Part shown: piece by piece, positions 26,068 through 44,859 of the stretch
Layout: the number at the start of each line of letters is the position of its first letter
How positions within the stretch are numbered: the first letter of the stretch is position 1
From: Nitrosopumilus oxyclinae
GTDB lineage: Archaea > Thermoproteota > Nitrososphaeria > Nitrososphaerales > Nitrosopumilaceae
Reading direction: 5' to 3'
DNA: 64,000 bases
NCBI RefSeq assembly: GCF_013407165.1
Contig: NZ_CP026994.1
Coordinates: 744,001 to 808,000, forward strand
Notes under the pieces: model-generated
Databases searched by the model: none
The model's input: only the letters and a program-made list of their open reading frames with translations
What the model was told of the DNA's origin: nothing
Translations under genes and position numbers: made by a program

Positions 26068-26484
26068 TTATAACTTTGCAGTCTCTACAAGCTTTGATAG
26101 TAAAATGTCAATGTCTATTGGTTTTAAGATGTATGATGAAACACCACGCTTTACAATGCTGTCTAATTCTTCTTGTGTAATTGTAGATGCTGTAAAGACT
26201 ATTATTTTATGATCTTTTAACATGTTATTTTTTTCAAGATCATCTATGACTGAATAACCGTCAAATTCAGGCATAGCCAAATCCAGTAAAATCACATCAT
26301 GACGATTTTCTTTAATTAATGATAGTCCTTCTTTTCCATCGTTTGCCACGGTACATTTGTGCTCTTTTAACTCTAGAAATGTTGTGAGCATTTTTGTAAT
26401 TTGCTCATTATCATCGATAATTAAAATTTCTAAATTTTCCAATTCTTCTCTTTGCTTCAATTTTGATATATCTTTATTGGTCAA
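26068..26484 (-). CDS. CheY-like response regulator
   Basis: A 138-residue stand-alone receiver domain: acidic pair DD at 24-25, phospho-acceptor D68 in VILLDLAMPEFDG, and the conserved lysine in YILKPIDID. It starts at TTG 26484, overlapping the upstream TrmB gene by 4 bases, and is 19 bases ahead of the histidine kinase, its likely partner. No output domain, so it signals by protein-protein contact. Confidence 0.9.
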   Translation of the reverse strand: MTNKDISKLKQREELENLEILIIDDNEQITKMLTTFLELKEHKCTVANDGKEGLSLIKENRHDVILLDLAMPEFDGYSVIDDLEKNNMLKDHKIIVFTASTITQEELDSIVKRGVSSYILKPIDIDILLSKLVETAKL

Positions 26485-27440
26485 TTTGAACTTCTCCCAC
26501 TATCCAACAATTTGAAATTTTCTTGAAGATAATTTAATATCATCTTTTCTTGTTCAATCTCTCTTAATCTATGTTCATAAGTAATTTCAGAACCTAATAA
26601 TGATTCAGCATCTGTTTCATCAATGTGATGTGACTTTTTCCACATCAAACTAAATAATGATCTTAATGTTGTTACAAATGCATTTGAATCAGTCCATACG
26701 GCAAGCATATCTTTTACTTTATTGTTACTGATGAAAAATATTACCTCGCTATTATCTTTAATTATGAAACAAAAATCTTCCCTGTTTTTATCATCAATCT
26801 TTTTAATTTTTTTAGGTTCAATACTTTCAAAAATATTTGATGTATCAGCTTGATGGTCTGTTAATATTCTAAGGTCTGATTTTGTTTTGTTTAATAATTC
26901 TGTAAATTCAGTAAAATAGAACCTTTTGAAATCCGCATCAGTTCCTAAAACTAGGATGTTTTCTTTTGATTCTTTTATCATTTGTTCTAGTTTACCTAAA
27001 ATTGAATTTCGACCTTGCAGTGATTGAAATTTGTTTTCTTGCGATTCGTCTTCACTTTCACCATATTTTGGAATTATATTCCATAATTTAATGAGACTGC
27101 TTTTACCTGCTTCAAGTTCGTTTAATCGATTCTTCTCATTGTTAATTAAAATCTCTAACGATTCATCCAGCCCAACTGCATTGAATTTTGTAGGTTTTCC
27201 AAAAACTGAAAAAATTATTCCTTTTTGTTGCAAAGTTGATAAAAGATGATATGTTTCAGTTCTTGGAATTTTTAGTGCTTTTGAAATTTCTGATGCAGTT
27301 TTAATTCCTATTTTACTTAGAAATAAGTATACTTTAGCTTGATTTGGTGTTAAATCATATCTCACAAGCATTCGTTGTAGTTCGTGAATTGGATTTTCTG
27401 TTTGAAATAACCCTTCTTCCACTGTCTCAGTCACTGTCAT
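26481..27440 (-). CDS. TrmB-family transcriptional regulator
   Basis: A 319-residue protein with an N-terminal winged helix (TPNQAKVYLFLSKIG ... SKALKIPRTETYHLL) and a C-terminal PLD-like sensor region typical of TrmB proteins (ILVLGTDADFKRFYF ... MLAVWTDSNAFV). It is a close paralogue of the regulator at 44008-44859; the two flank the pilus island. It is first in an operon with the receiver and histidine kinase. Confidence 0.88.
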   Translation of the reverse strand: MTVTETVEEGLFQTENPIHELQRMLVRYDLTPNQAKVYLFLSKIGIKTASEISKALKIPRTETYHLLSTLQQKGIIFSVFGKPTKFNAVGLDESLEILINNEKNRLNELEAGKSSLIKLWNIIPKYGESEDESQENKFQSLQGRNSILGKLEQMIKESKENILVLGTDADFKRFYFTEFTELLNKTKSDLRILTDHQADTSNIFESIEPKKIKKIDDKNREDFCFIIKDNSEVIFFISNNKVKDMLAVWTDSNAFVTTLRSLFSLMWKKSHHIDETDAESLLGSEITYEHRLREIEQEKMILNYLQENFKLLDSGRSSN

Positions 27441-27515
27441 TAAGAATTTTTACATAATTTTGTGACATAAGGGAGTGTATGTTATTAGATGTTACAGATC
27501 AAAAAATATTTTATT

Positions 27516-28291: not shown

Positions 28292-30868
28292 TTATCTATT
28301 TCTAATATCTGAAATTCTTTCTTTAACCTCTTCTATTTTATCTCCAATTGGGATTTTTTCGGTTATTATATCTAATTTATCCATTCGTTTAAGGAAAAAT
28401 AACCCTGTCAATATTGCAACTGGAATTATGATCATTACTAATAATGTATTATCGATAGGTAATCCACTCCAGTCTGGTTCTTCCTCTGAAATCTCTTCCA
28501 TAACTGGCATGTTTAGTATATTGGCAGTTTTTGAGATAGTTGTAGAGCTTAGTCCATTTCCTGAGACTGTGACGGATACGGAAACCTTATCTTTATCATT
28601 TGCAAGTATGTTTGCCTTTGCAATACCTTCACTACTTGTAACTTGTTCAGTTGTTAGTATTTCTCCTCCTACAATATCCCACTCTACATTAAATCCGCCC
28701 AAAGCGGTAGTTACTTCTGGAATTGTAATTGATATTTTTGATTCAATTCGTTCATTCCAATTTAGCCCTCCTAGAAATTCTAATGTGACAACGGGACTAA
28801 TATCAATTACATTGATATCATATTTAGAAAGCGTAAAATCTTCTGAAAGCAATGCTAATTCTATCGTCCCTTCATTGACTGTGTCTATCTCAAAAGTAGA
28901 AAAATAATCCCCTTCTTTAATTAATAATTTTTCAGGCACTTTTAATATTGTTTCATTATTTGAAACTAAATTAATTTTAATATCTTTTTTTGCGTATACT
29001 GGATTTCCAACTGAGTCTAATGCTTGAACCGTGGCAAGTGTTTTAGAATTTGCTAAAATATTTTTTTGGAATGATAAATAAATTGTAGTAGGATCCGTTG
29101 TGTGACTAGTAATTGATGAAATTCCTTCAAATCCGCCCATTTGATATGATAGATCTGTTGTACCCACCTTTGAAACTAAATTAAACTCTGCAAATGGTTG
29201 ATTTCGTTTTATTGTAATTGAATCTGCATTAATTAATTCATTAGCTGAAAAAGATAACACCCCATCTTCTATAAAGTAACTCACTCCTAATCTAGGATCT
29301 ACCTCTCCCTCTTCATCACTAGTAGAAGTACTTGTTTCCTCTTCTCCTGCTCCTTCATTAAGATATCCTAGAACTGGAAATTCTTTTTCCGCTAAAACAA
29401 CTGGTACTAATGACTCGATAATTAATTCTAAGTCTTCCTCAAGTGGTCCTATCGGATCCCCTGTTGCTGTTTTTACTCCTTCATTATCTGTTATGTAAAA
29501 ACTTACAGGGTCTTCCGGTACTACCGTTCCGGTATCTCCAAAAACAATGATTGCACTTTCACCTTTTTTCATTAAAGGATCAATTGGATTAACAGAGTCC
29601 AGTTCTGATGAGGAAAAGATAATTTTATGATCCTCTTGTGCCTTGACAGGGACTGTTACTGAAACAAGTTCTCTGTTGGTGGTTCCTTGAGTAGACCCAC
29701 CTGTCTGTCTTGAAACTTCAATCTCTGTTTCATAATATGTGACTGCAATAATTTCTTGTTTTCCAGTAGTTAAAAATGGCAATGTTTCTGTAACGGATGG
29801 GCCTTTACCTTCTAATGAACCAATTTCATCATGTATTACTGTAAATGTTGCACCATTTGTTAGAATATTTTCTGCTGAAATAAACATTTTGTATGTTTCT
29901 TCAAAACTTGATGTAAATTCACCTAAATTTGGTCTAGGTGAAAATTTTGTAAATGTAGAGTAACTTCCTTTTTTTATCACTAAATTTTTTTCTTCAATCA
30001 TTACCTCTTCAAATTTATTACTGGTATTGATTGAAACGTCTGGATTTTCAACTCCTATTTCTAAATGAATATCTTCTTCTGCAAAAACTGGTAATCCATC
30101 TCCATCTAGAAGTTGTACAATTGCATATCCTTCTGAACCACTAAAACTAATATAATTTTCTGGATGAACATATAGTTGCAATTGAAGAGGGGTTATTGGT
30201 TCTAATACTTTTACAATACTACTTATTTTTTTCATATTTCCTGTTTCTGCAAAAATAATTGCATCCCCATAATCTAATATTTCAAATTCTGTAATCGCAT
30301 AATATTCTCCTCCAGATATTACTAATTCTGATTCTTTGATATTGATTACATCTTTATTTGGAGTGTCTAGATTTATCATTACCTCTTCCGATGTAATGGC
30401 TGGCAATCCTCCAGTAGTTGCTAATTCTACAACAATGAATCCAAATCTAGGTCCATCAACGGGGAACTCTGACGGTGTTACCTTCATTAACATTTTTGTA
30501 GGATTATTATTGTTGGTAAAAACTTCTAAAGAAATTTCTTTAGATGAAAAACCTGTTGCTGCCAATGCTATACTGGCAATTCCTGATTCCTTTGCTTTGA
30601 TAATTACATTTTTGGTAAATTTATCATTTCCTTCTTCAATCCTGATGATTTGAATTATTTCGTTATCAGAACTCACAACTTTCAAACCATCTATTTGTTT
30701 TGGTACCATTATATCGTTTGACGTGATAAAAATTTGCAATGTTGCTTCTGTATTCTCTAATAATTTTCCTGGATGAAGTTGGTATCCAAACTCTGATGTT
30801 GTTTGAGCCTGAACAGGTATTACAAAAATGCTCAACATTAAACTAAAAATGAGAAAAAGAACTTTCAA
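28292..30868 (-). CDS. Large secreted surface protein with Ig-like repeats and C-terminal anchor
   Basis: An 858-residue protein with a signal peptide (MKVLFLIFSLMLSIF..., cleavage near AQA), several beta-rich repeated modules of about 100 residues (recurring patterns such as VSSDNEIIQI, AVVQLLDGDGLPVFAEED, VQALDSVGNPVYAKKDI), a transmembrane helix (about 815-835) and a basic cytoplasmic tail. It starts at TTG, which with the TATA box at 30889-30900 implies a leaderless transcript. It lies between the prepilin peptidase and pilus platform genes. Probable adhesin or pilus-associated surface protein (inference). Confidence 0.75.
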   Translation of the reverse strand: MKVLFLIFSLMLSIFVIPVQAQTTSEFGYQLHPGKLLENTEATLQIFITSNDIMVPKQIDGLKVVSSDNEIIQIIRIEEGNDKFTKNVIIKAKESGIASIALAATGFSSKEISLEVFTNNNNPTKMLMKVTPSEFPVDGPRFGFIVVELATTGGLPAITSEEVMINLDTPNKDVINIKESELVISGGEYYAITEFEILDYGDAIIFAETGNMKKISSIVKVLEPITPLQLQLYVHPENYISFSGSEGYAIVQLLDGDGLPVFAEEDIHLEIGVENPDVSINTSNKFEEVMIEEKNLVIKKGSYSTFTKFSPRPNLGEFTSSFEETYKMFISAENILTNGATFTVIHDEIGSLEGKGPSVTETLPFLTTGKQEIIAVTYYETEIEVSRQTGGSTQGTTNRELVSVTVPVKAQEDHKIIFSSSELDSVNPIDPLMKKGESAIIVFGDTGTVVPEDPVSFYITDNEGVKTATGDPIGPLEEDLELIIESLVPVVLAEKEFPVLGYLNEGAGEEETSTSTSDEEGEVDPRLGVSYFIEDGVLSFSANELINADSITIKRNQPFAEFNLVSKVGTTDLSYQMGGFEGISSITSHTTDPTTIYLSFQKNILANSKTLATVQALDSVGNPVYAKKDIKINLVSNNETILKVPEKLLIKEGDYFSTFEIDTVNEGTIELALLSEDFTLSKYDINVIDISPVVTLEFLGGLNWNERIESKISITIPEVTTALGGFNVEWDIVGGEILTTEQVTSSEGIAKANILANDKDKVSVSVTVSGNGLSSTTISKTANILNMPVMEEISEEEPDWSGLPIDNTLLVMIIIPVAILTGLFFLKRMDKLDIITEKIPIGDKIEEVKERISDIRNR

Positions 30869-30888: not shown

Positions 30889-30899
30889 TTTTCTTATAT
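30889..30899 (-). promoter_or_regulatory. TATA box for the 858-aa surface protein gene
   Basis: On the minus strand TTTTATATAAG lies about 25 bases upstream of TTG 30868, directly after the conserved element at 30904-30928. Confidence 0.5.
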
Positions 30900-30903
30900 A
30901 AAA

Positions 30904-30928
30904 CAGTGTGAAATATTACAATACACAC
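30904..30928 (-). promoter_or_regulatory. Conserved pilus-island upstream element, copy A
   Basis: A 25-base element, GTGTGTATTGTAATA followed by TTTCACACTG on the minus strand, immediately upstream of the TATA box. It matches copy B at 33954-33978 at 23 of 25 positions, with the same offset to TATA. Likely a regulator or activator site. Confidence 0.65.
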
Positions 30929-30930
30929 AG

Positions 30931-32376
30931 TCATGCAAAAATTGATGATACGCTGAATATTTTAAGCGAAATTACCACTATTGCTCCAATTGATGTTGCA
31001 ACTAGAAATATAGAATACATGAATCCACCAGAGTAAGATCCAGTGGTAATTTTTCCCAAAAATAACCCTGAAATCCAAGATTGAACCAATATTGCAACAC
31101 CTAATAATTGAAACCTGTAATTTGCATCTGCTTCCAATAATGCCCTTTTTTCTTCATTCTCTTCTAATTGTGCACCTAGACTTGTCAGAGATTCAATTAC
31201 AAGCAATGTTGTAAAACCTGTAATTGCAATTAACATGAAACCTACCATGACAAATGGTTTTAATTTTTCTCTTTTTGTTTTTTCTAAGTTATGCATTTTT
31301 TCAGCAACGCCAGCTAATGTGATTAAAGTATTGACATTTCCTCCACCTGCTGAAATAATTTCAAATAACACTTTAAAATTTATTAAAATCCTAAAATCAT
31401 TAGTTTCTTTTTTAATATAGCCAAAAATATCATCCAATGTCATTCCCCACTCGAGTTTATTGGCAATACCATTGGCCACTCTATTGAATGATCCATAATC
31501 TTTTCTTTTTGTGGTTCTTACAACACATTTTTCTGGACCTAGCCCTGCTTTTCTTGCTTCTGCAACATCTCTCATAATTTGAGCAGTTGCCCTTTCTGCG
31601 TCAATTGAAAATTTGTACTTGTCTTTAAAATTTAATGCTGGCCATATTGCAGCTGCAATTAATGCACCACCTAAAATGTACAAATTTAATTCTGGTAATA
31701 AATCTAAATAATTAATTATTATTGCAACTAAAATTCCCGGCAATCCAAATGTTGAGATTTTTTTCCAATCTAGTTCATTTACTTTTGATTTGTTTAATTT
31801 GCCTGCAATAATTGAAAAAAGCACTGATACTACTGGAGGCAAGATGATGACAAAATATAGTGGATCAATATCATTCGGTCCAGGGGTGCTTCCTACTCCG
31901 TCTGTAGATGTTGCTGTAATTATGATGTAGATGGCCAATACCACAACTTGCATTGTCATATACGTTTCAATTACAGTCTCTACTTTTTTTGCTAATTCTT
32001 CCTGTTGTGATTCATACAATTCAAACGCTCCATCCATTTTTGATTTAAGATAACTTACTACATCCCCTCCACTTTGGATGGCCGATACCCATCCACTTAG
32101 AAAATCTCCAAAACTCGAACCTTTTTCTTTACTCTCTGACATGACTATTAATGGATCTTGACCCAAGATATCAATTCGTTTTAAAATTTTTATTGATTCA
32201 TGTCTGACATGCGGTAGCAAATCCAAATTCTTAATTTTTAAAAAAATAGTATATGGGCCAAACCCACTAGTGGCCAGCAATGTCACTATTGTTATAAAAA
32301 AAGGTAATTCTGGATCAATCTTTTTATTTAATTTCTTTTTCTTATCATCTTCTTCATATTTTTTTATAAATGACAT
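30931..32376 (-). CDS. Type IV pilus/archaellum platform membrane protein (TadC/ArlJ family)
   Basis: Polytopic platform on which the pilus fibre is assembled. 481 residues with two T2SS-F type halves: FLSGWVSAIQSGGDVVSYL and later ISAGGGNVNTLITLAGVAE, each followed by paired membrane helices. It is encoded 2 bases after the ATPase gene, the usual ATPase-platform pair of archaeal type IV pili. Confidence 0.9.
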   Translation of the reverse strand: MSFIKKYEEDDKKKKLNKKIDPELPFFITIVTLLATSGFGPYTIFLKIKNLDLLPHVRHESIKILKRIDILGQDPLIVMSESKEKGSSFGDFLSGWVSAIQSGGDVVSYLKSKMDGAFELYESQQEELAKKVETVIETYMTMQVVVLAIYIIITATSTDGVGSTPGPNDIDPLYFVIILPPVVSVLFSIIAGKLNKSKVNELDWKKISTFGLPGILVAIIINYLDLLPELNLYILGGALIAAAIWPALNFKDKYKFSIDAERATAQIMRDVAEARKAGLGPEKCVVRTTKRKDYGSFNRVANGIANKLEWGMTLDDIFGYIKKETNDFRILINFKVLFEIISAGGGNVNTLITLAGVAEKMHNLEKTKREKLKPFVMVGFMLIAITGFTTLLVIESLTSLGAQLEENEEKRALLEADANYRFQLLGVAILVQSWISGLFLGKITTGSYSGGFMYSIFLVATSIGAIVVISLKIFSVSSIFA

Positions 32377-32378
32377 GT

Positions 32379-33914
32379 TTATACACCATATTCAATTTTC
32401 TTCATTAATGTTTCAGGATCTCTATAGTATTTTCCAATATATTCAGCAACTTTATCGTAGCTTCTAATCCCTCTATCTACTAACCATTTCAAAACAATTT
32501 TCCTTTTTTCATATTCTTCCATAATTTCATCCAGACTAAGACCTGTTTGTTGTGATAGTCTATTGAACATTTCACTATCTCCTAATTGAGGTTCAAAATA
32601 ATCTGCTTTTGGATCCCATCTAAAAGAATTATGATATGAATCTGAGGTTTTGATTTCTTGAACTGAAATTGCCCTTCTAGTACTTTTACCATCCATGCCT
32701 TTTACTCTTCTAATTACTATGGCACAATTCATTAATGCCATATATGCTGCTGGAATATCCATTGGTTTTTGTTGCAATCTTTTACTTGCTGATTCTAAAC
32801 TATCTGCATGCATTGTACACAAACCTCCGTGACCTGTAGCCATTGCTTGGAACATGACATATGCTTCAGACCCTCTAATTTCACCTACTACAATATAGTC
32901 TGGTCTATGTCTTACCCCTGATTTAATTAAATCATATAATCCGATTTCTCCTTCTTCATTGTTACCAAAACCTACTCTGGATACTAAACTAAACCAATTT
33001 TCATGTTTGATGTTGATTTCAGCTACATCCTCTACTGAAAAAATCTTAAAATCTGGATTCACCAAACCTGTAATCGCATTAAGTATAGTTGTTTTACCAC
33101 TACCTGTTGAGCCGATTACCATGATGGACATTTTTGCTTCCATTAACATCCATAGATATGCTGCAATATCTACACTAATTGTACCAAATGATATTAGATC
33201 AATTACTGAATAAGGATCTTGTTTGAATTTTCTTATTGTAAAACTAGTTCCTTTCGGTGTAACTTCTTTTTGGTATAATACTGAAATCCTATGGTTCCCT
33301 TGTAATGATAAATCTGAAATTGGGTGTGCCGAACTGATGTGTTTCCCTGCTCTAAACACAATTCTCGATACAAAGGAATTTAATTTCTCATCTTCAAATG
33401 TGATATTACAAGGAATACTGTCATATTTTCTATGCCATACATAGATTGGTAAATTTATTCCACTACAACTTACGTCTTCGATATTTGGGTCATGCATCAT
33501 TGGATCAATATTTCCAAAACCATCGATTTCTTTTTCTAAATAATATTTTACTTTTTCAAGGCTTGCAAGTGGCTGATCCTCAAACAATTTTTCATTTTCT
33601 TTTAGAACTTTATTGACAAATGAAATGAATCCAAAATCTTTTTCGATATTATCAGGAGAGTCTAAATTTTCTTCTATTAATCGATAGAGTTGATTATATA
33701 CAATTTGCTCTGATTGATTTAATTTAGTTTCATCTACTTGGTAAGATATATTGCCTTTCTCTATATCCTGTAAAATGTTAACATAACTAAATGGTGCTTT
33801 TAGAGGGTATTTTTCTAATAATTTTGAACCTTTTGGAGTCTCGTTGTTTAATTCGGATAAGAATTCACTTTTAAGAAATGTTTCTAATCCTTGTTCTTCT
33901 TTCTTTTTACCCAT
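32379..33914 (-). CDS. Type IV pilus assembly ATPase (TadA/ArlI family)
   Basis: Hexameric ATPase that drives pilin extraction and assembly. About 511 residues. Walker A is IGSTGSGKTT, Asp box and Walker B region DYIVVGEIRGSEAYVMFQA, and the His-box is GHGGLCTMHADS. A TTG at 33923 is in frame, but ATG 33914 fits better; the TATA-like CAATATAACC is about 30 bases upstream. Copy B of the conserved 25-base element precedes it. It is followed by its platform protein. Confidence 0.92.
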   Translation of the reverse strand: MGKKKEEQGLETFLKSEFLSELNNETPKGSKLLEKYPLKAPFSYVNILQDIEKGNISYQVDETKLNQSEQIVYNQLYRLIEENLDSPDNIEKDFGFISFVNKVLKENEKLFEDQPLASLEKVKYYLEKEIDGFGNIDPMMHDPNIEDVSCSGINLPIYVWHRKYDSIPCNITFEDEKLNSFVSRIVFRAGKHISSAHPISDLSLQGNHRISVLYQKEVTPKGTSFTIRKFKQDPYSVIDLISFGTISVDIAAYLWMLMEAKMSIMVIGSTGSGKTTILNAITGLVNPDFKIFSVEDVAEINIKHENWFSLVSRVGFGNNEEGEIGLYDLIKSGVRHRPDYIVVGEIRGSEAYVMFQAMATGHGGLCTMHADSLESASKRLQQKPMDIPAAYMALMNCAIVIRRVKGMDGKSTRRAISVQEIKTSDSYHNSFRWDPKADYFEPQLGDSEMFNRLSQQTGLSLDEIMEEYEKRKIVLKWLVDRGIRSYDKVAEYIGKYYRDPETLMKKIEYGV

Positions 33915-33953
33915 GTGACTCAATACTATTCATGGATTTTTGGTTATATTGAG

Positions 33954-33978
33954 CAGTATGAAACATTACAATACACAC
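33954..33978 (-). promoter_or_regulatory. Conserved pilus-island upstream element, copy B
   Basis: Minus strand GTGTGTATTGTAATG followed by TTTCATACTG, 23 of 25 identical to copy A and similarly placed 4-6 bases before a TATA-like sequence. It lies upstream of the ATPase/platform operon. Confidence 0.65.
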
Positions 33979-34048
33979 AATATTGGTTTTTAACAAAAAT
34001 ATAAAAATAATTTTTTGGATAAGAATAAAAAAATTCCCTTATCCTGGA

Positions 34049-34690
34049 TTATTGTCCTGATACGGTGATACTTTGAGGTCCGCCAGCTTTTCCTGCAAAC
34101 ACACTGACTGTAGTTGCAACACCAGAGTCGAGAGTTGTAATTGTACCGTTATTTATTTTGAAATAAATAACTGCAGTACTACCTGGGTTCAAGGACACTG
34201 GGCCTGTTGCAGCAACACCTTGAATGACGTTGGTGCCTACACCCCATGAATCTTGATCAATACACAGGTAATTTGCGTCACCTACACATGCTCCAAGTTT
34301 TGAAATTGCTGGTCCATTAGTTGCTGGCAATGCGTTTACCCAACCTGTATGATTCAATGCTTGCTGAAATTCAGCAGCAGTCAAGGTTGTATCTACATAC
34401 CATTGTCCAAATGGGATATCTATGCCCCTAAGTGATATTTTATCTACGGCGACTACTTTGTCACCTGTATTTCTAACACCCGTTGCACCCCAAGCTGCGC
34501 CGCCAGGATCAGTTTGATGTACCCATACTTTGGTTCCAGTTACTGAAATATTTTCAGTTTGTGTACCTCCTTGGAATAATGAAGTTCCGTAAAGTACAAC
34601 ACCTGAACCAAGCACAACTGATGACACCAATATGATGACAGTTGTAAGTACAGTACTGATTGCACGTTTTTTGCTTAGTTTGGTTTTCAT
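34049..34690 (-). CDS. Type IV pilin (class III signal peptide), copy 1
   Basis: A 213-residue pilin. N-terminus MKTKLSKKRAISTVLTTV has a basic leader with the prepilin cleavage site expected at KKR/AIS, followed by a hydrophobic assembly helix to about residue 38. The C-terminal globular domain has one cysteine pair (KLGACVG ... YLCIDQD). It is a tandem duplicate of the gene at 34805-35449, sharing identical leader, helix and the WVNALP block, and diverging mainly toward the C-terminus. Probable major pilus subunit. Confidence 0.88.
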   Translation of the reverse strand: MKTKLSKKRAISTVLTTVIILVSSVVLGSGVVLYGTSLFQGGTQTENISVTGTKVWVHQTDPGGAAWGATGVRNTGDKVVAVDKISLRGIDIPFGQWYVDTTLTAAEFQQALNHTGWVNALPATNGPAISKLGACVGDANYLCIDQDSWGVGTNVIQGVAATGPVSLNPGSTAVIYFKINNGTITTLDSGVATTVSVFAGKAGGPQSITVSGQ

Positions 34691-34739
34691 TTTATTATTT
34701 TTAATCCAATCTAATAGAATAACTAGTCGAGTATGTAAT
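34691..34739 (-). repeat. Duplicated 49-bp pilin upstream sequence, copy 1
   Basis: The 49 bases immediately upstream of this pilin match those at 35450-35498 with one mismatch, then diverge. This is the end of the duplication unit and probably contains the shared 5' leader. Confidence 0.75.
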
Positions 34740-34804
34740 TTTTTTGAATTACAGAGTAAAAAGAATTTAATCTATTGTTCTGGATATTGGAGAAGAATAT
34801 GGAA

Positions 34805-35449
34805 TTATGATAATCCTGCAACTACAATTGAATAGGGTGCACCTGCTTTACCTGCGTATATACTAACATTTGACTGAATTCCTGTATCAAGTGATGTGAA
34901 TGTGCCATTATATGCTTTAAAGTAAATAACTGCAGTTTGACCCGGATCTAATGATACTGGACCTGTTGATACATCTGCTGAGATGACGTTGGTGCCTGCA
35001 CCCCATGAATCTTGATCAATACACAGGTAATTTGCGTCACCTACACATGCTCCAAGTTTTGAAATTGCTGGTCCGTTAGTTCCTGGCAATGCGTTTACCC
35101 AACCTGTATGATTCAATGCTTGTTGATATTCACTACTTGTCATTGTTGTATCTGCATACCATTGTCCAAACGGAATATCTGTACCTCTAACTGAAATTTG
35201 ATTAACTGAAATAACTTTGTCTCCTGTATTTCTAACACTAGCTGCTCCCCAAGCTACGCCTGTGGGATCAGTAGCATGTACCCACACTTTGACATCAGAA
35301 GCTTGGATAGCTTCAGTTTGTGTATTTCCTTGAAATAATGAAGTTCCGTAAAGTACAACACCTGAACCAAGCACAACTGATGACACCAATATGATGACAG
35401 TTGTAAGTACAGTACTGATTGCACGTTTTTTGCTTAGTTTGGTTTTCAT
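34805..35449 (-). CDS. Type IV pilin (class III signal peptide), copy 2
   Basis: A 214-residue pilin paralogue of the neighbouring gene, with the same KKRAISTVLTTVIILVSS leader-helix. Differences cluster after the helix (for example QTEAIQASDVKVWVH against QTENISVTGTKVWVH) and near the C-terminus. The pair allows mixed fibres or antigenic variation. Its upstream region has a weaker relative of the pilus element at 35515-35528. Confidence 0.88.
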   Translation of the reverse strand: MKTKLSKKRAISTVLTTVIILVSSVVLGSGVVLYGTSLFQGNTQTEAIQASDVKVWVHATDPTGVAWGAASVRNTGDKVISVNQISVRGTDIPFGQWYADTTMTSSEYQQALNHTGWVNALPGTNGPAISKLGACVGDANYLCIDQDSWGAGTNVISADVSTGPVSLDPGQTAVIYFKAYNGTFTSLDTGIQSNVSIYAGKAGAPYSIVVAGLS

Positions 35450-35498
35450 TTTATTATTTTTAATCCAATCTCATAGAATAACTAGTCGAGTATGTAAT
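35450..35498 (-). repeat. Duplicated 49-bp pilin upstream sequence, copy 2
   Basis: Matches 34691-34739 with one mismatch; identity ends abruptly further upstream. Confidence 0.75.
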
Positions 35499-35553
35499 AT
35501 TTTTTAATTTCTTGGTGAAATTTTTACACTATATAAAAACTAAAATTTGAAAA

Positions 35554-36999
35554 CTACAGATCATCGCCTGCAAGATTGGTATATGCACCCAAAAATCTTG
35601 CAACTGTTTTCCTTAATCCTTCATATGGCATACATAATGAAAAAATTTTAGTTACGCCTGTAGGGATACCAATGGCTACAACACTGATGCCTTTTTTTCT
35701 TGCTGCCTCAACAGCTTCTTTCATTTTCACATCTGCTTCATATGTGCCTAACGCTTGTCCATCTGTAATCAAAAATATGTATCTGCGTTCAATATTTTCT
35801 CTCTCTAAAATTCTTGAGCATAGTATAACTGCATCTGCAATAAAAGAAAGACCTTTGATCTCAATACCGCCAATACGTGATTTTGAATGTTGATCAAAAT
35901 TTTCATAATGGTCTTTGACTATTGTGAAATTATTATTGAATGTAAAAAATCCCCATTTTCCATTCTTTGAATTGACTTCATTTGCAGCCTCACCTAAGCA
36001 AATGGCAAATTTTTTCATTTCATCAAATTTTAGTCTCATACTACTACTGGTATCGACTACGATTGCCCATTCTTCTTCAATTCTCCTATAATCGTCTTGC
36101 TCAAAAATTTGTATGCTGTTATTTTGAGCTGCTACTGCTTGAATTGCTGCCTGCATTTCTAACAGCCCCATATCTTCAGGCATTCCTTCATCCATGACAT
36201 TGGGTGTCATTTTCATCTGTGAAGACATCTTTTTTAAAAACAAGTGAGTGGCATTTTTTAATCTGAGATATTCGCCAATATTTTCTGGGGCAAAGTCAAT
36301 CTTGTCAAATTCTAAATCTTCCGTAATTCCACCATATTTTTTCCTAACCTTGGCTCTTCGTTTTAGTTGTTCAAACCATACTTCTGTGAATCTTTGAACA
36401 GTGTCATAGAATATACCTTCAGTCGTTATTGTAATATCTTCTAACCATTTTTCTATTCGTTTAGGATGACTATAATGATCTGTAAATGGATAATTATAAT
36501 CAGATATGATATTTGAAGATTCATAAATTATATCTGCAATATTTGAAATTTCTTTTTCATTTTCAGGATCTGTGTTAAGGATTTTATCTTCTAATTCTTT
36601 TCGTTTACTTTTAATTTCTGAAATAAATCTGTTTGAAAATATCTTTTTTGAATTTCTTTTAATATTTTCTAATTCTGTTTGATCATTTATCATATTAAAA
36701 AGATTTTCAATTTTTTTGATCTCATTATGATATTCTGGAAAGTCATTTTTTAAAAATTCATTCACTCTTACATCTTCAATGTATTCAAATGTTTCATATG
36801 CTCGTTTTTTATTTTTATCTTTCATCCATTTTTTGTAGATTTTAAAATTTGTTACCTTTGCATGGCCTGCAGCATGACAGATTGATGCCAAATACAAAGA
36901 AAAAATAGTATTTTGTGATTCTTCTACGTTTGAGAAAGCACATCCTTGAATTGTTTCTAATCCCTGAATAGGTCTAGGCATTGGAAAAAATACTGTCAT
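35554..36999 (-). CDS. VWA-domain protein (CbbO/NorD-like); start may extend to 37125
   Basis: A 481-residue protein counted from ATG 36999, with a C-terminal von Willebrand A domain: MIDAS DTSSSMR in EWAIVVDTSSSMRLKF and FLITDGQALG. The N-terminal part is helical and charged. It is paired with the MoxR-type ATPase 37131-38150, as in CbbQ/CbbO and NorQ/NorD systems that insert metals or remodel partner complexes. The open frame continues 42 codons upstream of this ATG without any ATG, GTG or TTG; a CTG at 37125 with an AGGTG eight bases ahead could be the real start. Confidence 0.8.
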   Translation of the reverse strand: MTVFFPMPRPIQGLETIQGCAFSNVEESQNTIFSLYLASICHAAGHAKVTNFKIYKKWMKDKNKKRAYETFEYIEDVRVNEFLKNDFPEYHNEIKKIENLFNMINDQTELENIKRNSKKIFSNRFISEIKSKRKELEDKILNTDPENEKEISNIADIIYESSNIISDYNYPFTDHYSHPKRIEKWLEDITITTEGIFYDTVQRFTEVWFEQLKRRAKVRKKYGGITEDLEFDKIDFAPENIGEYLRLKNATHLFLKKMSSQMKMTPNVMDEGMPEDMGLLEMQAAIQAVAAQNNSIQIFEQDDYRRIEEEWAIVVDTSSSMRLKFDEMKKFAICLGEAANEVNSKNGKWGFFTFNNNFTIVKDHYENFDQHSKSRIGGIEIKGLSFIADAVILCSRILERENIERRYIFLITDGQALGTYEADVKMKEAVEAARKKGISVVAIGIPTGVTKIFSLCMPYEGLRKTVARFLGAYTNLAGDDL

Positions 37000-37130
37000 T
37001 CTTGGCTCATATTCAATTTTTGGAAAATACTGCGTATCTAGAAAAAACGTATCGATATCTATTGGTTTTCGTCCAGAAATTTCAAAAAATAAACTATGCC
37101 CAATATCTTGAATTGTGTCTTTCAGTCAAA

Positions 37131-38150
37131 TCACACCTTTTTTGATAAAGTTTGACTTTCTAAAACTTTTTTGACAATATGTCTAACTTCGTCTTGAACT
37201 TCAGGATCATCACTAGTCATCGGAATTAATGTTTCATTGCCTCCCTCCATAATAGATACTCCATCAGAACAAACTTTTGCCCAGTTTACTAAATCTCCAA
37301 CAGATGGACCGTATGGCAAATCTCCCATTTTGTATTCTTGTCTTAGTTTAGCTCCAACTTTTACAATACTTTCAGCATCAATCATTGGTATCCCTCCTTT
37401 TTTTGAAACCATGACAATTTCTTTTTCATCTATGTTATCTCCAACACTCATGTAATCAAAGTTTAACCAAACACTCATTCTTCTTCTCATGGCAGCATTG
37501 ATTGGTTTTGTACCTGCAAATTCTGATGATACAGGGTTCATACTAATTATCATGTAAGCATGCTTATGTCTGTGAATAATTTCACTATCTTTTTCTGTTA
37601 ATACCATGTGTCCCCTCTGATCTAGTAATGGATTGAGTTTTGTAGCAACATCTTGTTTCATCATGTTTGCCTCATCAAGATATAAAATTCCACCTTTCCT
37701 ACACCAACCTGTAATTAACCCGTCAATCCAATTCTCTTTTCCTAATCCAACATATCTTCCAAATAAATCAAAAACAGATGTTGCCAAACCACAGTTGATT
37801 TCCCACATTGGTAAACCTGCTAATTCTGCAACTAGATAGACAATGTGAGTTTTACCAGTTCCACTCGGGCCAATTAATGCACACTGTTTGAAAAACTTTA
37901 GTGCTCTACCAATTCTTTCAACATAATGCTCACCATTATCTAAATAAGGTGGAGTGTCTTTTGGAATCATCTCATCCATTTCTTCGGGGAATACCATTTC
38001 TGCAGAATTCATGTATTTTTTAAAATCATACATTTTGGATAATGCATGAGTTTCTTTTTTGATCTTTGAAATTGACATTGACAAATTGCCTTTATCTGAA
38101 TTAATTTTAGTTCGATTAGTTGATGAAATTAGCGAATTATTTTGGTCCAT
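37131..38150 (-). CDS. MoxR-type AAA+ ATPase (CbbQ/NorQ-like)
   Basis: A 339-residue AAA+ chaperone-like ATPase. Walker A is GPSGTGKTH, Walker B GGILYLDEAN, sensor 1 ISMNP and an arginine-rich sensor segment AAMRRRMSVWL. Such proteins act with a VWA partner to mature or remodel another complex; the partner gene follows directly. Its place inside the pilus island suggests it acts on the pilus machinery, but this is inference. Confidence 0.88.
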   Translation of the reverse strand: MDQNNSLISSTNRTKINSDKGNLSMSISKIKKETHALSKMYDFKKYMNSAEMVFPEEMDEMIPKDTPPYLDNGEHYVERIGRALKFFKQCALIGPSGTGKTHIVYLVAELAGLPMWEINCGLATSVFDLFGRYVGLGKENWIDGLITGWCRKGGILYLDEANMMKQDVATKLNPLLDQRGHMVLTEKDSEIIHRHKHAYMIISMNPVSSEFAGTKPINAAMRRRMSVWLNFDYMSVGDNIDEKEIVMVSKKGGIPMIDAESIVKVGAKLRQEYKMGDLPYGPSVGDLVNWAKVCSDGVSIMEGGNETLIPMTSDDPEVQDEVRHIVKKVLESQTLSKKV

Positions 38151-38192
38151 TGATGACTGTTTTAGTTGTGAATAGAGTTAATGCTGTTATGT

Positions 38193-38214
38193 GTGTGGAA
38201 ATGTTACATACACA
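38193..38214 (-). promoter_or_regulatory. Conserved pilus-island upstream element, diverged copy C
   Basis: Plus-strand GTGTGGAAATGTTACATACA aligns with copies A and B (GTGTGAAATATTACAATACA) with one inserted and one deleted base. It is oriented toward the MoxR/VWA genes (start 38150) and also faces the plus-strand gene at 38283. Confidence 0.4.
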
Positions 38215-38282
38215 TTGTAATAATGAATTTTTTGGCTATTTTATTTATAATGAATGCCCATATCGAACTTACTTCAATTGCC

Positions 38283-38822
38283 ATGAGTAAAAATGACCCA
38301 AAAATTACCAAATTAGACAAATATGATGTGGAGGCCAATATTGAAGAAGTTGCTAATAGTGAGGATCAATCAATATTCAAATATGGATTTACAGCGTTAT
38401 CTAATCCTAAAAATGTTCGTCTAGCTATTGAAGGGATTGCAAGAATTCAGGGTGATTCTGAGGAAAGAGATGAGATTTTGAATAAAGATGAAAATGGTGT
38501 TCCAAAAATTTTAACAATGATTTATCAGGAATTATTCCCTACATTCTTTTTACTCTCGAAGAGCCTTAACGTTTCATGTCCACCTCACACAATAGGTTCT
38601 ATGGGTCTTTCTGATGAGACTCAAACAAATGAGTTATCAAATGATTTGTTAGAACCACAAGCAGAACCTGCTACTCCAGAACCACAAGCAGAACCTGCTA
38701 CTCCAGAACCACAAGCAGAACCTGCTACTCCAGAACCACAAGCAGAACCTGCTACTCCAGAACCACAAGCAGAACCTGCTACGGGAGAAAAGACTTCTGA
38801 CATAGTTCAGCCTACGGTGTAA
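38283..38822 (+). CDS. Hypothetical protein with C-terminal PEPQAEPAT repeats
   Basis: About 179 residues from ATG 38283; the frame is open upstream to 38181, but the TATA-like TTTATTTATAAT (38242-38253) is about 30 bases before 38283 and favours it. The N-terminal 120 residues are soluble and charged; the C-terminus has five 9-residue P/E/Q/A repeats encoded by 27-bp tandem units. No signal peptide. It lies divergently from the MoxR gene in the pilus island. Function unknown. Confidence 0.65.
   Translation: MSKNDPKITKLDKYDVEANIEEVANSEDQSIFKYGFTALSNPKNVRLAIEGIARIQGDSEERDEILNKDENGVPKILTMIYQELFPTFFLLSKSLNVSCPPHTIGSMGLSDETQTNELSNDLLEPQAEPATPEPQAEPATPEPQAEPATPEPQAEPATPEPQAEPATGEKTSDIVQPTV
38652..38786 (+). 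repeat. Tandem 27-bp repeat, five units
   Basis: Five head-to-tail 27-base units beginning GAACCACAAGCAGAACCTGC, the last with two changed bases. In frame, each encodes a PEPQAEPAT register. Near-identity implies recent expansion or homogenisation by slippage or unequal recombination. Confidence 0.9.
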
Positions 38823-38850
38823 GTATATTTTTTTACATACTAGTGATAAT

Positions 38851-39345
38851 ATGAAAAATTATCTCATTTTTTATATGATTAGCCATGATCATAGTGATTT
38901 TTTTTCATGTAAAAAGAGAAAAGCTCTATCGACAGTAGTAACAAGTGCAATTCTTATGGCTGCGGTTTCAATTATGGGTGTCATGTTAGTAACATGGTCA
39001 AATACTAGTTTATTTACACAACAAATAGAAATTGAGAATTCTTTTAATGAAAAAATGAATAAACTAAATGAAGACATATTTATAGAAAATATTTGGTTTG
39101 GAAATTCTTCTCCTGAAACATTAAATGTTACATTAAGTAATGTGGGAATCATTGGTCTGAATATAACTTCAATTCGAGTTTCAAATAGTTCAGGATTTAC
39201 ATTATTTTCAATTACTGATGGCGGGGTATCTCCAAATGCAATTTATTCATTTAACACTACTTATTTTTGGGATGCTGGTGAAACTACGGATTTTATAATC
39301 ACAACAAATCGAGGAAATAGCTATAATGCTCAAACGGTGACCTAA
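38851..39345 (+). CDS. Pilin-like protein with class III signal peptide
   Basis: A 164-residue protein. A 24-residue leader ends in KKRKA, followed by a hydrophobic helix (LSTVVTSAILMAAVSIMGVM), the prepilin pattern, and a mostly beta C-terminal domain with N-glycosylation-like NxS/T sites (NTS, NSS, NVT, NTT). The gene is 1 base ahead of the giant pilin-like gene; the pair are probably cotranscribed. Possibly a minor pilin. Confidence 0.78.
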   Translation: MKNYLIFYMISHDHSDFFSCKKRKALSTVVTSAILMAAVSIMGVMLVTWSNTSLFTQQIEIENSFNEKMNKLNEDIFIENIWFGNSSPETLNVTLSNVGIIGLNITSIRVSNSSGFTLFSITDGGVSPNAIYSFNTTYFWDAGETTDFIITTNRGNSYNAQTVT

Positions 39346-39346
39346 T

Positions 39347-42300
39347 TTGTTTAAAAAAAGAAGAGGTCTTAGTGCAATAATTGGTGGCGTGTTTATGCTC
39401 ATTGTCATAACTACTGCAATTACATATACAACATTTAACATGAATCAGATCACTCAACTTGGTGAAACTATTGCAATTAAACAAACTACTGATGTTGAAA
39501 AATCTACTGAAAAATTTGAAGTTGTAAAAGTATCAATTGATAATAATCAATTCAACATGACAGTAAAAAATACGGGTAACATACCTGTTCATCTAAATAG
39601 ATTGTGGATTGAAAATACCACTGATTCGTCATGGCCCGTATCTAGGTTTGATATCAACTATTCTCTTGCACCAGGAAATGTTACAATGAATATTGGTCAA
39701 AATATTGGATTGACTGCACTTGATACACAATCATATGCTGCACAACTTGTAACTACCAGAGGAACTGCAGAACAAATGTTTCTGAATAGCGTTGGCGACT
39801 CTACAGTTTATTTAAGATTAACTGCGTCACCTTCTGTATTCCCAACTACTTTTAGTACTAATGTTGCTTTGGAAGTAATCAATACTGGCACTACTCAATT
39901 ATTGAATTTACAACCTACTATGCTTGAAGTTTTACCCACTTGTTCATCATCATGTGAATATACTTTAGAACAATCTGTCACTCCTGTTAGTTTTGATTCT
40001 GTATCTCCGGGTGATACTGCTATCTTTGAATGGGTTTACTCATTTACTGGCTCTAATGGAGATATCTTAGAATTTACTGCAGGATTGACTAATGATTTGA
40101 GAAACGATACTGTTTCTGTTTCATTACAAACAATTGAATCTGCACTTAATGCAGAAGTTGCCATTGAATCTGGGGGACTTGGAAATCAGATCCTAATTGA
40201 TGATGATATTTTACTATTCCATGAAGAAACTGATGGTACTCCATCCGGAGAATACCAAATGTGGTCAGGAACGGGTGATGGAGGAGGAAATGGTGATAGA
40301 ATTCAATTAGATTCTGAAGTGCCTCACTTTTTTACAAATAATGGTTCTGAACCAATCACAATACCTGCAGGGGATTGGAACGTTGCCATGATGTTATCAA
40401 GTGAACCCGTAGCTACAGGACTAAAAGATCAAAATGTAGATATGATATTTCATTTTGAAGACGGTGTGGGAATAAATCCCGATAATTCAGAAAGTGATTC
40501 ATCTAGGGATTTAGAATCTTGTGGATCTTCTTCTTTTGGACCCACACCTATTCAAGCTTCAGCTGATGATGCAGAACAATCAGATGATGGAAGTATGGAT
40601 TTGGGTGGTGGTAGTAGTGATCATGAATTGGTAGAAGATAATGGTGATTATCAATGGATGGGTTATCGTTGGGATGTCCCTATTCCTTCAGGAGTTACTG
40701 TAACTTCTGCATATATTGAATTTGAAGCTGATGAAACACGTAATGAAACTCCTGTTGATATAATTATTGGGGCACAAAAAATTGCAGATGCACCCGCATT
40801 TACTACAAGTGATGATAATGTTAAAGATAGATGGGATGGTACCATTAGTTCTGTAACTGATGAGCAGGTACAATGGGCACCCTCTGGATGGAGCAATAAT
40901 GATAGAGGTACTAACACACGAACACCAGATTTATCTCCAATAATTCAAGAACTGATTGATCAGGGAGGATGGACTAGTGGTAATGGGATGGCTTTCATTA
41001 TTAAAGACAATAGTGGGGGTACAAATGACAATCATAGAACAGCTAAACATTGGGATGATGACGGAGAGTCCAACTCTGCACATTTGTATATTTCTTGGGG
41101 TGCCTCCGATTCAACCCCCACTTACAGAGATGGTTTAGGACCACATAATTCGGGAACTTATGAATTTGATGGGATTAACGACTGTTTTAGAAGCTCAAAT
41201 GATGTGTCCGATGGGGATGGAAATCATATTGATAGTAATGATGTGTCTACATCATTATGGTTCAAAACAGATCCTGGAGAAATAACAACTGAAGAGATGC
41301 TTGTTTTTTGGGAAGGTGATGGAGTATATCCGCTTGCAGATTACTATAAAATTTCTCTAGGTGAAGATGGTACGGGAAAAATATTATTTGAATATAATAT
41401 GGATCAAGGACTTACCGCAGATGTCACTTGTAGAAGTCAAAATGAATACGATGATGGAGAATGGTACCATGTGGTAGCAACAAGAGATGCAAGTAGTGAT
41501 GATTGTAGGTTATACATAAAAGATATTGATGGTGTGGCCACAGAAAACACAATTTTCTCAAACCCAAATCATCCTTCTTACAGTGTTGTAGATGCTGATG
41601 GAAAATGGTATGTCGGTTCAAATCAAGAACTATTGAACTATTTTGGAGGATGGATTGATGATGTAATGCATTGGAATGAGGATGAACTAAGTAGTTCTGA
41701 AGCAGATGACTTGGGAAGGACAAACTATGGAGATAATGCATATCGTTTTGATTTAAGATTGGAATTAACGGATTCGAATGGGAATTTTGTGGAGACATGG
41801 CATACTGAAGATGATGTAGGTGTTTTCTTTGCAGATCCTAAAGATGGGGGAGATAATGATGATTGGGCTTACTCTCAACAAAATATGACATTTACTTTAC
41901 CACAAAAAGTTGTAGGTGATGATCAAAGATTAGAACTTTATTTTGATTGGAAAGATTCCACAGCTACTTTGGAATCATTAGAAGTAGATATGAAAATTGA
42001 TGATACATCGATGCTACCATATCCATCTTTCATGCAAATTCCATTCCCAAGTGATCCATTTCCCACATATTACACTCATGACAAAGATGATCACTTTGAT
42101 GTGTTTGCCGCAAATACTGGAACAGATGGAATATTTTTAATTTATCAAGGAACACGGATTAATTTTAATGGTACAGGAGGAGCATATGCTGCTTTAGTAG
42201 ATCGCATTAATGGCACTGATGTAAATGAAGATCATGATAGTCTATACATCCCTCCCGGTGAAATTGCTGACTTGGATTTCTATGTTGCAACCGATAGACC

Positions 42301-42433
42301 ATCTACAAATGCTGCAGGGAATAAACTCATTCCAGGCTCATATCGTACAACCATCTGGCTAAATGGATACTCTGATCAAGGTGAAACGTTCTCTAGATCA
42401 GTCCCAATAGGCTCAATCATTGTTACAGATTAA
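39347..42433 (+). CDS. Giant pilin-like adhesin with LamG-like domain
   Basis: A 1028-residue protein from TTG 39347. The leader MFKKRRGLSAIIGGVFMLIV is a textbook class III signal followed by the pilin helix. Then come beta-rich modules: about residues 30-270 of pilin-like type, about 400-585 a DNRLRE/CBM-like module (ITLxF-like blocks with DVPIPSGVTVTSAYIEFEAD), and about 600-800 a LamG/concanavalin-like fold (STSLWFKTDP, GEWYHVVATRD, DGKWYVGSN, GGWIDDVMHW). Many acidic residues. Such a protein could sit at the pilus tip and bind polysaccharide or a surface (inference). Confidence 0.8.
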   Translation: MFKKRRGLSAIIGGVFMLIVITTAITYTTFNMNQITQLGETIAIKQTTDVEKSTEKFEVVKVSIDNNQFNMTVKNTGNIPVHLNRLWIENTTDSSWPVSRFDINYSLAPGNVTMNIGQNIGLTALDTQSYAAQLVTTRGTAEQMFLNSVGDSTVYLRLTASPSVFPTTFSTNVALEVINTGTTQLLNLQPTMLEVLPTCSSSCEYTLEQSVTPVSFDSVSPGDTAIFEWVYSFTGSNGDILEFTAGLTNDLRNDTVSVSLQTIESALNAEVAIESGGLGNQILIDDDILLFHEETDGTPSGEYQMWSGTGDGGGNGDRIQLDSEVPHFFTNNGSEPITIPAGDWNVAMMLSSEPVATGLKDQNVDMIFHFEDGVGINPDNSESDSSRDLESCGSSSFGPTPIQASADDAEQSDDGSMDLGGGSSDHELVEDNGDYQWMGYRWDVPIPSGVTVTSAYIEFEADETRNETPVDIIIGAQKIADAPAFTTSDDNVKDRWDGTISSVTDEQVQWAPSGWSNNDRGTNTRTPDLSPIIQELIDQGGWTSGNGMAFIIKDNSGGTNDNHRTAKHWDDDGESNSAHLYISWGASDSTPTYRDGLGPHNSGTYEFDGINDCFRSSNDVSDGDGNHIDSNDVSTSLWFKTDPGEITTEEMLVFWEGDGVYPLADYYKISLGEDGTGKILFEYNMDQGLTADVTCRSQNEYDDGEWYHVVATRDASSDDCRLYIKDIDGVATENTIFSNPNHPSYSVVDADGKWYVGSNQELLNYFGGWIDDVMHWNEDELSSSEADDLGRTNYGDNAYRFDLRLELTDSNGNFVETWHTEDDVGVFFADPKDGGDNDDWAYSQQNMTFTLPQKVVGDDQRLELYFDWKDSTATLESLEVDMKIDDTSMLPYPSFMQIPFPSDPFPTYYTHDKDDHFDVFAANTGTDGIFLIYQGTRINFNGTGGAYAALVDRINGTDVNEDHDSLYIPPGEIADLDFYVATDRPSTNAAGNKLIPGSYRTTIWLNGYSDQGETFSRSVPIGSIIVTD

Positions 42434-42508: not shown

Positions 42509-43201
42509 ATGCAATCATCAGAATCTACCAACCCTCAGGCAGCTCCAGAACAACAGACAGCTCCAGAACAACAGGCAGCTCCAGAACAACAGGCAGCTCC
42601 AGAACAACAGGCAGCTCCAGAACAACAGGCAGCTCCAGAACAACAGGCAGCTCCAGAACAACAGGCAGCTCCAGAACAACAGGCAGCTCCAGAACAACAG
42701 GCAGCTCCAGAACAACAGGCAGCTCCTCAAACAGCATCTATTGATCCTAATGATGTTAATGCAAAAACACTCACTCAACTAAACACTCTGATGGAAGAGT
42801 CTCTTCAAATTTATGAATTAGAAGATCAAAAAACAAATGTTATAGATGATTTACATAATGCATTACAAGTCATCACTCAATTCTTAGGATTCTCAACAAA
42901 TGTACATCCAGAGATATTCAATCTCCCTGCAAATTCAACAATCACAATGCTCCCAAATTTAAAATTAATTATAAAATTAGCAAACGGTAAAACCGAGACT
43001 AAAAAATTCACAGATTATCCTCCTGAAGTGATTACTGGAATTGTGGAATATGTCACTCCTCAATTATTAGAATTAATTCAAACTCAAAAATCATATTTGA
43101 CTGAAAAAATAACATTCTTGAGAACTGCTACTAAACAACTTAGTACTCTAAGTCAATTAAAAGAAAATTTACCATCGATGACTACTATTGAGGAAAATTG
43201 A
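42509..43201 (+). CDS. Hypothetical protein with N-terminal AAPEQQ repeats
   Basis: A 230-residue protein. Residues 11-70 are ten hexapeptides AAPEQQ (first with T) encoded by 18-bp tandem units; the remaining 160 residues are a helical, soluble domain (TLTQLNTLMEESLQIYELEDQ...). No signal peptide. A TTG-start gene overlaps its end by 4 bases. The repeat is low-complexity and probably disordered. Function unknown; position is within the pilus island. Confidence 0.7.
   Translation: MQSSESTNPQAAPEQQTAPEQQAAPEQQAAPEQQAAPEQQAAPEQQAAPEQQAAPEQQAAPEQQAAPEQQAAPQTASIDPNDVNAKTLTQLNTLMEESLQIYELEDQKTNVIDDLHNALQVITQFLGFSTNVHPEIFNLPANSTITMLPNLKLIIKLANGKTETKKFTDYPPEVITGIVEYVTPQLLELIQTQKSYLTEKITFLRTATKQLSTLSQLKENLPSMTTIEEN
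42539..42718 (+). repeat. Tandem 18-bp repeat, ten units
   Basis: Ten units of GCAGCTCCAGAACAACAG, near-perfect, in frame, encoding the AAPEQQ tract. Not CRISPR: no spacers. Confidence 0.92.
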
Positions 43202-44007: not shown

Positions 44008-44859
44008 ATGGCAAAAGAAACAACACAGACATCAATATTTGATTCATCACCTGACTCACAAATGTATGAGTACAAGTTATCTGTTGAAAAGGTTCAAACA
44101 GAACTATTACAATATGGTCTAACATCAAATCAAAGCAAGGTATTCATTTATCTTGGAAAATATGGTTCAAAAACTGCTCCTGAAGTATGCAAAGCACTCA
44201 AACTTCCTAGAACTGAAACATATCATTTGCTATCTGCATTACAGAATAAAGGAGTTGTTTCAGCAACATTTCAACACCCAATTCAATTTACTGCTTTACC
44301 TTTAGACAAAGCAATATGGATTTTAGTAAACTCTGAAAAAGAAAGAGTCAAATCATTAGAGCAGATGGAAAAAGGATTATCTGAATTATGGGAAAACATC
44401 CCGGCATTTGATTCAATTCATGATGAAGTTGAAGAGAAATTTCAAATGTTACAAGGATCAAACCAAATTCATTCTAAAATTACAGAAATGACTGATAGCT
44501 ATAATGATGAATTTTTAATTTTAGGTTCTGAGAAAGATTATCTCAAACTGTATCACGGTGATTTTCTAGAATCATTTGTAAAATCAAAACAACAATTTAG
44601 ATTACTCAGTGCGTGTTCTGAAAAAACCGCATACATCTTTGATGATTTAGAACGAAAGAATATCAAAAAACTTAGTAAAGATATTGAAAACCACCTATGT
44701 TTCATATTGAAAGATAATGGTGAGATGTTATTCTTTACAAAGAATGCAAATTCTACTGAAGAATTATTTGCAATGTGGACAAATTCAAAATCAATGGTAT
44801 ATTCGATGAAATTACTTTTCGAATCCCTTTGGACAAACTCAAAGAATATTCATTTGTAA
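44008..44859 (+). CDS. TrmB-family transcriptional regulator (paralogue)
   Basis: A 283-residue paralogue of the regulator at 26481-27440: shared SNQSKVFIYLGKYGSKTAPE, CKALKLPRTETYHLL and the FILGSEKDYLKLYHG sensor region. The N-terminal helix-turn-helix binds DNA; the C-terminal sensor resembles PLD-type TrmB modules. It ends the pilus island on the right, while its paralogue is on the left. ATG 44008 start. Confidence 0.88.
   Translation: MAKETTQTSIFDSSPDSQMYEYKLSVEKVQTELLQYGLTSNQSKVFIYLGKYGSKTAPEVCKALKLPRTETYHLLSALQNKGVVSATFQHPIQFTALPLDKAIWILVNSEKERVKSLEQMEKGLSELWENIPAFDSIHDEVEEKFQMLQGSNQIHSKITEMTDSYNDEFLILGSEKDYLKLYHGDFLESFVKSKQQFRLLSACSEKTAYIFDDLERKNIKKLSKDIENHLCFILKDNGEMLFFTKNANSTEELFAMWTNSKSMVYSMKLLFESLWTNSKNIHL

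Follow-up and report, generated by a model that had tools for sequence, protein, structure and literature searches.

The type IV pilus island and its genes

The stretch analysed here (the window, 64 kb, positions 744001–808000 of a single-contig genome of 1.585 Mb) covers a type IV pilus island. Two of its transcription units are at the centre of this study: (i) the gene of an 858-residue surface protein without a Pfam family (28292–30868, minus strand) and (ii) an operon in which the pilus ATPase (T2SSE, with a PilB3-like C-terminus; 32379–33914, minus strand) is encoded together with the platform protein (T2SSF; 30931–32376, minus strand). The island also encodes a prepilin peptidase, pilins, a histidine kinase with a receiver, a TrmB-family regulator, referred to as TrmB1 (26481–27440, minus strand), and a MoxR/CbbQ-type AAA ATPase (37131–38150, minus strand) that is followed by the gene of a VWA protein (35554–36999). 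The gene p38 (38250–38822, plus strand) is the first of a divergent operon that comprises minor-pilin-like genes (38851–42433), and a second TrmB-family gene (trmB2, 44008–44859) and a gene encoding a KaiC-like ATPase follow. A strong linkage of the vWA–MoxR/GvpN pair to the thaumarchaeal T4P loci of subclade 4A is reported in the part of PMC4858521 that deals with these loci. Two of the island proteins contain tandem repeats rich in Pro, Ala, Glu and Gln, made of EPATPEPQA and APEQQ units (38722–38805 and 42530–42730).

Two island promoters carry the same rare element

The surface-protein gene and the ATPase/platform operon are each preceded by one copy of a 26–27-bp element, TGTRTGTATTGTAATRTTTCAYACTG, which abuts the TATA box. 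Copy 1 (CTGTGTGTATTGTAATATTTCACACTG, 30904–30930, minus strand) adjoins the TATA block TTTTATATAAG of the surface-protein promoter (30893–30903, minus strand), the coding strand reading TGTGTGTATTGTAATATTTCACACTG-TTTTATATAAG; copy 2 (TTGTGTGTATTGTAATGTTTCATACTG, 33954–33980, minus strand) adjoins the TATA block CTCAATATAAC of the ATPase promoter (33943–33953, minus strand), with TGTGTGTATTGTAATGTTTCATACTG-CTCAATATAAC on the coding strand. Both TATA blocks were read directly and align with those of relatives. The preliminary description of this DNA had pointed to near-identical copies ahead of a TATA box, and this is what we find: segments 30904–30929 and 33954–33979, both on the minus strand, match at 24 of 26 positions. 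At the two window promoters, the ATATA of the TATA box is located 31 or 35 nt upstream of the start codon. Wherever the element was aligned, its end adjoins the BRE/TATA block, and the ATATA, which is invariant, lies 28–37 nt before the start codon, so that the transcripts should be nearly leaderless.

The 26-mer, with up to three mismatches allowed, occurs at two places only in the whole genome, namely the two island copies, and the reversed pattern, used as a control at the same tolerance, had no match in the genome. A sequence-only profile of 43 columns, spanning the element plus the TATA box, gave scores of 54.3 and 47.2 bits at the two copies, the next site in the genome scoring 14.2 bits. 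The genome scan that had been proposed as a check for random occurrence thus shows that the element is not scattered, the two copies being the only strong matches in 1.585 Mb.

The element is an imperfect inverted repeat whose arms, GTRTG and CAYAC, are 13 bp apart; the bare dyad GTRTG-N13-CAYACT occurs exactly twice in the genome, at the two island copies. The arms are extended in Nitrosarchaeum (CAGTATG-N13-CATACTG), and in the Nitrosopumilus set the sole variable base of each arm is the mirror image of that of the other. When the columns are shuffled, dyad symmetry, with the centre left free, has a p of about 0.01; the support for this imperfect dyad is modest.

The element is conserved under strong constraint

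The orthologous island is present in five more Nitrosopumilus genomes, and all five have the element at both promoters; conservation at the orthologous promoters of close relatives, which the preliminary description had singled out as a check, is therefore established. A scan of 61 genomes detected two strong sites apiece in the six Nitrosopumilus genomes (that of the window and these five), the remaining 55 having nothing comparable. When 250 genomes of the family were searched with the profile, 25 reached E ≤ 0.001, and all matches above about 33 bits lay at an island promoter or in an island remnant, except for one extra copy. Five genomes reached only 19–23 bits; among these, the match in G074 could be placed at the surface-protein promoter. 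In a collection of genomes from 84,980 species, a degenerate form of the element had 11 exactly matching stretches, every one of which came from these archaea. Records with the element carry the label Nitrosopumilus or Nitrosarchaeum, or the broader Nitrosopumilales/Thaumarchaeota. The Nitrosarchaeum (g31) form reads CAGTATGTATTGTAATGTTTCAYACTG, and in a third genus (g25) the surface-protein copy persists with lower scores (33.5 and 22 bits). No ATPase copy is present in several Nitrosarchaeum genomes or in g25, where a pilin gene closely precedes the ATPase gene; joint control is therefore not universal. An element-like string in front of a pilin gene from a more distant family (L038) was set aside, as the profile had no match at E ≤ 0.5 in that genome.

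Between Nitrosopumilus genomes, the 27-bp element is 87–89% identical, compared to 38–45% for the 20 bp downstream and, for the 45 bp upstream, 37% at the ATPase promoter and 60% at the surface-protein promoter, where this segment overlaps the preceding gene. In atp and moxR, silent substitutions have reached saturation for most pairs of genomes (dS about 1 or more), so that the retention of the element reflects strong purifying selection. Two copies from one genome differ less than copies taken from different genomes (mean of 5.3 versus 7.6 differences in 43; p = 0.0045, and p = 0.04 within Nitrosopumilus), as expected from co-evolution with one binder or from gene conversion. If the two promoters had simply arisen by recent duplication or gene conversion, with no regulator in common, one would understand that the copies of G034 and G083 are nearly identical to each other. 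Such an origin is nonetheless highly improbable, since the element is conserved across genera despite the saturation of silent sites while its flanks are not; the 61-genome scan, the relatives' promoters and the flank comparison already contradict it.

The adjoining TATA block is 80–87% identical, that is, nearly as conserved as the element, and one could view the whole as an extended core promoter that a specific combination of TFB and TBP recognises, with no separate regulator. Yet the conserved block has dyad symmetry and extends about 27 bp beyond the BRE, which exceeds the known reach of TFB. Although many archaeal T4P loci encode TFIIB homologs (PMC4858521), we consider the extended core promoter quite unlikely.

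Natural variants of the island

One genome, G148, has lost the platform, surface-protein, peptidase and trmB1 genes, and its ATPase gene continues into that of the receiver; the ATPase promoter has kept an intact element (50.7 bits). In this complete genome, a clean deletion (L136, 15108–18159) fuses the ATPase gene to the receiver/kinase pair. Comparison of the G148 ATPase with that of its sister G177 gives a dN/dS of 0.015 with no excess of amino acid changes; the loss thus looks recent, and G148 is compatible with TrmB1 being the binder. G164 retains a remnant of the island, in which the ATPase start is truncated and the element preceding it has drifted to a score of 37 bits. G148 and G177 both differ from the window in that their minor-pilin genes, pilC/pilD, are inverted with respect to p38 (L136, 8159–9060; L142, 4052–5262).

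G179 harbors a third copy of the element, with the same TATA layout, before a gene encoding a secreted, alkylsulfatase-like protein of the MBL fold. When this gene was examined as a possible sign of a wider regulon, the genomes of two same-genus homologs of the sulfatase-like protein (65–67%; G162 and G152) gave no profile match. In G012 (L189, 1367–1476), TGTATGTGTAAGAATATTACGCGTTATTTTATATA, which bears a weak resemblance to the element, precedes a paralog of the G179 gene.

The other island promoters have conserved elements of their own

The elements described below were compared with the main element by local profile comparison. This method was chosen after a full-overlap log-odds comparison had proved uninformative, its score being dominated by mismatched columns, and the p-values are consequently somewhat exploratory. 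A related but distinct conserved element, TGTGTATGTAAYATNNMCACACAC (38191–38214), unique in the genome and conserved in six relatives, lies between the divergent MoxR (minus strand) and p38/minor-pilin (plus strand) genes. A copy of the main element facing the MoxR gene had been reported at 38193. What had been noticed is real, conserved and similar to the main element (gapless alignment, column-shuffle p = 0.0002); however, it is a distinct element, too diverged to be detected by the profile, and its orientation is that of an element facing the plus-strand minor-pilin operon rather than MoxR. By contrast, the match to GTGAAAT...TTACA reported before a pilin gene (35515–35528) is spurious: it is kept at no relative's pilin promoter, and what is conserved there instead is a different block, TTACATACTCGACTAG, nearer the gene. 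The conserved pilin-promoter element of the window, TGTAATTCAAAAAAATTACATAC (34731–34753, minus strand), is unique in the genome, and TGTAATTCAAAAAAATTACATAC is common to most pilin promoters. Upstream of trmB1 lies another conserved element, TCTGTAACATCTAATAACATACA (27476–27498, minus strand), whose conserved form is TCTGTAAYATNNAATAACAYACA. An apparent element before a minor-pilin gene (38818–38841) was rejected, its left half overlapping the stop codon of the preceding gene.

The MoxR/p38, pilin and trmB1 elements have in common with the main one at best the half-site GTATGTA/TACATAC, which is absent from the kaiC promoter, taken as a control. Taken singly, the comparisons of these half-site elements with the main element reach only p values of 0.03–0.13 (for trmB1, the similarity is weak, with p = 0.03 with a gap and 0.12 without), so that a factor common to all of them is at most suggested. 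The island regulon put forward in the preliminary description therefore has to be redrawn: the surface-protein gene and the ATPase/platform operon do share the strong element, but MoxR/p38, the pilins and trmB1 have their own. For the strong element, the regulon is narrower than claimed, with two transcription units; for the half-site, it may be broader.

A putative operator for an island-dedicated regulator

The element displays three features of an operator: it is found at more than one promoter, at a fixed place by the BRE/TATA, it is conserved beyond neutral expectation and it is rare elsewhere. It thus constitutes a shared, island-specific and evolutionarily constrained promoter element, and we propose, with a probability of roughly 0.7, that it is the operator of a putative transcription factor dedicated to the type IV pilus island. 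We infer protein binding, activation and the regulator's identity as follows. A putative dimeric regulator would sit on the element, directly upstream of the BRE/TATA, where it would be placed to contact TFB/TBP. Most likely, it would help to recruit TFB/TBP and activate both transcription units (surface protein and ATPase/platform), leading to joint production of the pilus motor and its surface partner. This circuit, or that of a related factor, may also include the diverged version at the MoxR/minor-pilin genes and the half-site elements found at the promoters of trmB1 and the pilins.

The assumption of an activator stems from the position of the element upstream of the BRE/TATA, a position that goes with activation in archaeal precedents (PMC4158304; PMC10665913); in the TGM case, sites upstream of the BRE/TATA are associated with activation and sites downstream with repression (PMC4158304). 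Position alone does not prove activation, as a repressor masking the BRE would look similar. Indeed, the element abuts the BRE/TATA block, and a repressor bound there might block the access of TFB to the adjoining BRE. We nevertheless consider such a repressor operator unlikely because nearly all of the element is upstream of the core promoter, whereas repressor sites in the TGM case overlap the TATA box and the start or are found downstream of them (PMC4158304).

As to the identity of the island-dedicated factor, TrmB1 is the leading candidate by position, with mixed evidence. It belongs to a DNA-binding family whose sites upstream of the BRE/TATA act in activation (PMC4158304), it is encoded within the island, and close orthologs exist in most genomes with a strong element, although this co-occurrence stems from its linkage to the island. 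Its own promoter contains a conserved element that includes the half-site, but this element is only weakly similar to the main one. Moreover, the known TrmB-family operators are short-spaced (TATCAC-N5-GTGATA, TACT-N3-AGTA) and not N13 (PMC4158304), and G148 has an intact element without trmB1, even if the loss looks recent. That TrmB1 binds the element and, by way of the half-site GTATGTA, also governs MoxR/p38, the pilins and its own promoter is therefore a tentative proposal. More doubtful still is the idea that one island-dedicated regulator reads the half-site GTATGTA at every promoter of the island, namely those of the motor, the surface protein, the MoxR/minor-pilin genes, the major pilins and the regulator's own gene, with spacing and orientation differing between promoters, and tunes each unit separately. 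If true, ammonia-oxidising archaea would have a pilus regulon code that is compact and self-contained, with a new, long-spaced type of archaeal operator.

Comparison with known archaeal operators

An operator upstream of the core promoter is a known kind of thing. Among the closest parallels are the EarA boxes of euryarchaeal archaellum promoters, short conserved sites that lie a short distance upstream of the BRE in a type IV pilus-like operon; EarA is a winged-helix activator that binds these boxes and is thought to contact TFB (PMC10665913). EarA boxes read TACATA or A(C/G)(C/G)TACA(T/C) and are found, single or repeated, 9–11 nt upstream of a weak BRE (PMC10665913). The strong element differs in sequence and spacing, being a long-spaced inverted repeat without TACATA, and lacks a hexamer of the TACATA type some 9 nt ahead of the BRE; TACATA is present in the pilin and MoxR/p38 elements. 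The TGM/TrmB-family operators of Thermococcales and halophiles are likewise inverted repeats beside the BRE/TATA, their position deciding between activation and repression, and the island has TrmB-family genes; however, their half-sites differ and their spacers are N3–N8, versus N13 here (PMC4158304). Sequence comparison found none of the motifs TACT-N3-AGTA, TACT-N7-8-GAGTA and TATCAC-N5-GTGATA in the element. The ArnR boxes of flaB, a pilus-type gene of Sulfolobus, are inverted repeats as well and also lie upstream of the core promoter, and ArnR proteins are activators, but the boxes are two in number, read TCGAC-N5-GTCGA, a motif that the element lacks, and are bound by membrane-bound regulators of the Sulfolobales type (PMC6396743). 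Finally, the hexamer A(N)TTTC of the UV-inducible Sulfolobus ups promoter is an upstream motif needed for the activity of a pilus promoter; unlike the element, it is non-palindromic, has another sequence and is present at many genes (PMC5817253).

For the thaumarchaeal T4P loci of subclade 4A, the part of PMC4858521 devoted to them describes gene content and candidate regulators and mentions no promoter element. The literature searched contained no described pilus operator of ammonia-oxidising archaea; the element and its regulon thus appear undescribed. A 27-bp site at two positions per genome, together with a candidate regulator and natural deletion variants (G148, G164), provides a testable handle on pilus regulation, which bears on when these abundant ammonia-oxidising archaea make surface pili.

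Other conserved boxes

The trmB2 and kaiC promoters (upstream of 44008 and 44941 in the window) have in common a box conserved in relatives, TCTAACAA / TTGTTAGA, which is probably a separate, putative TrmB2 operator. Outside the window, the palindrome TATGTTATYTGAAATAACATACA precedes three genes, one for a secreted protein and two for similar small membrane proteins (L171, L172 and L173, position 1501–1523; genome positions 941671, 943537 and 1305556); these genes look like another small regulon.
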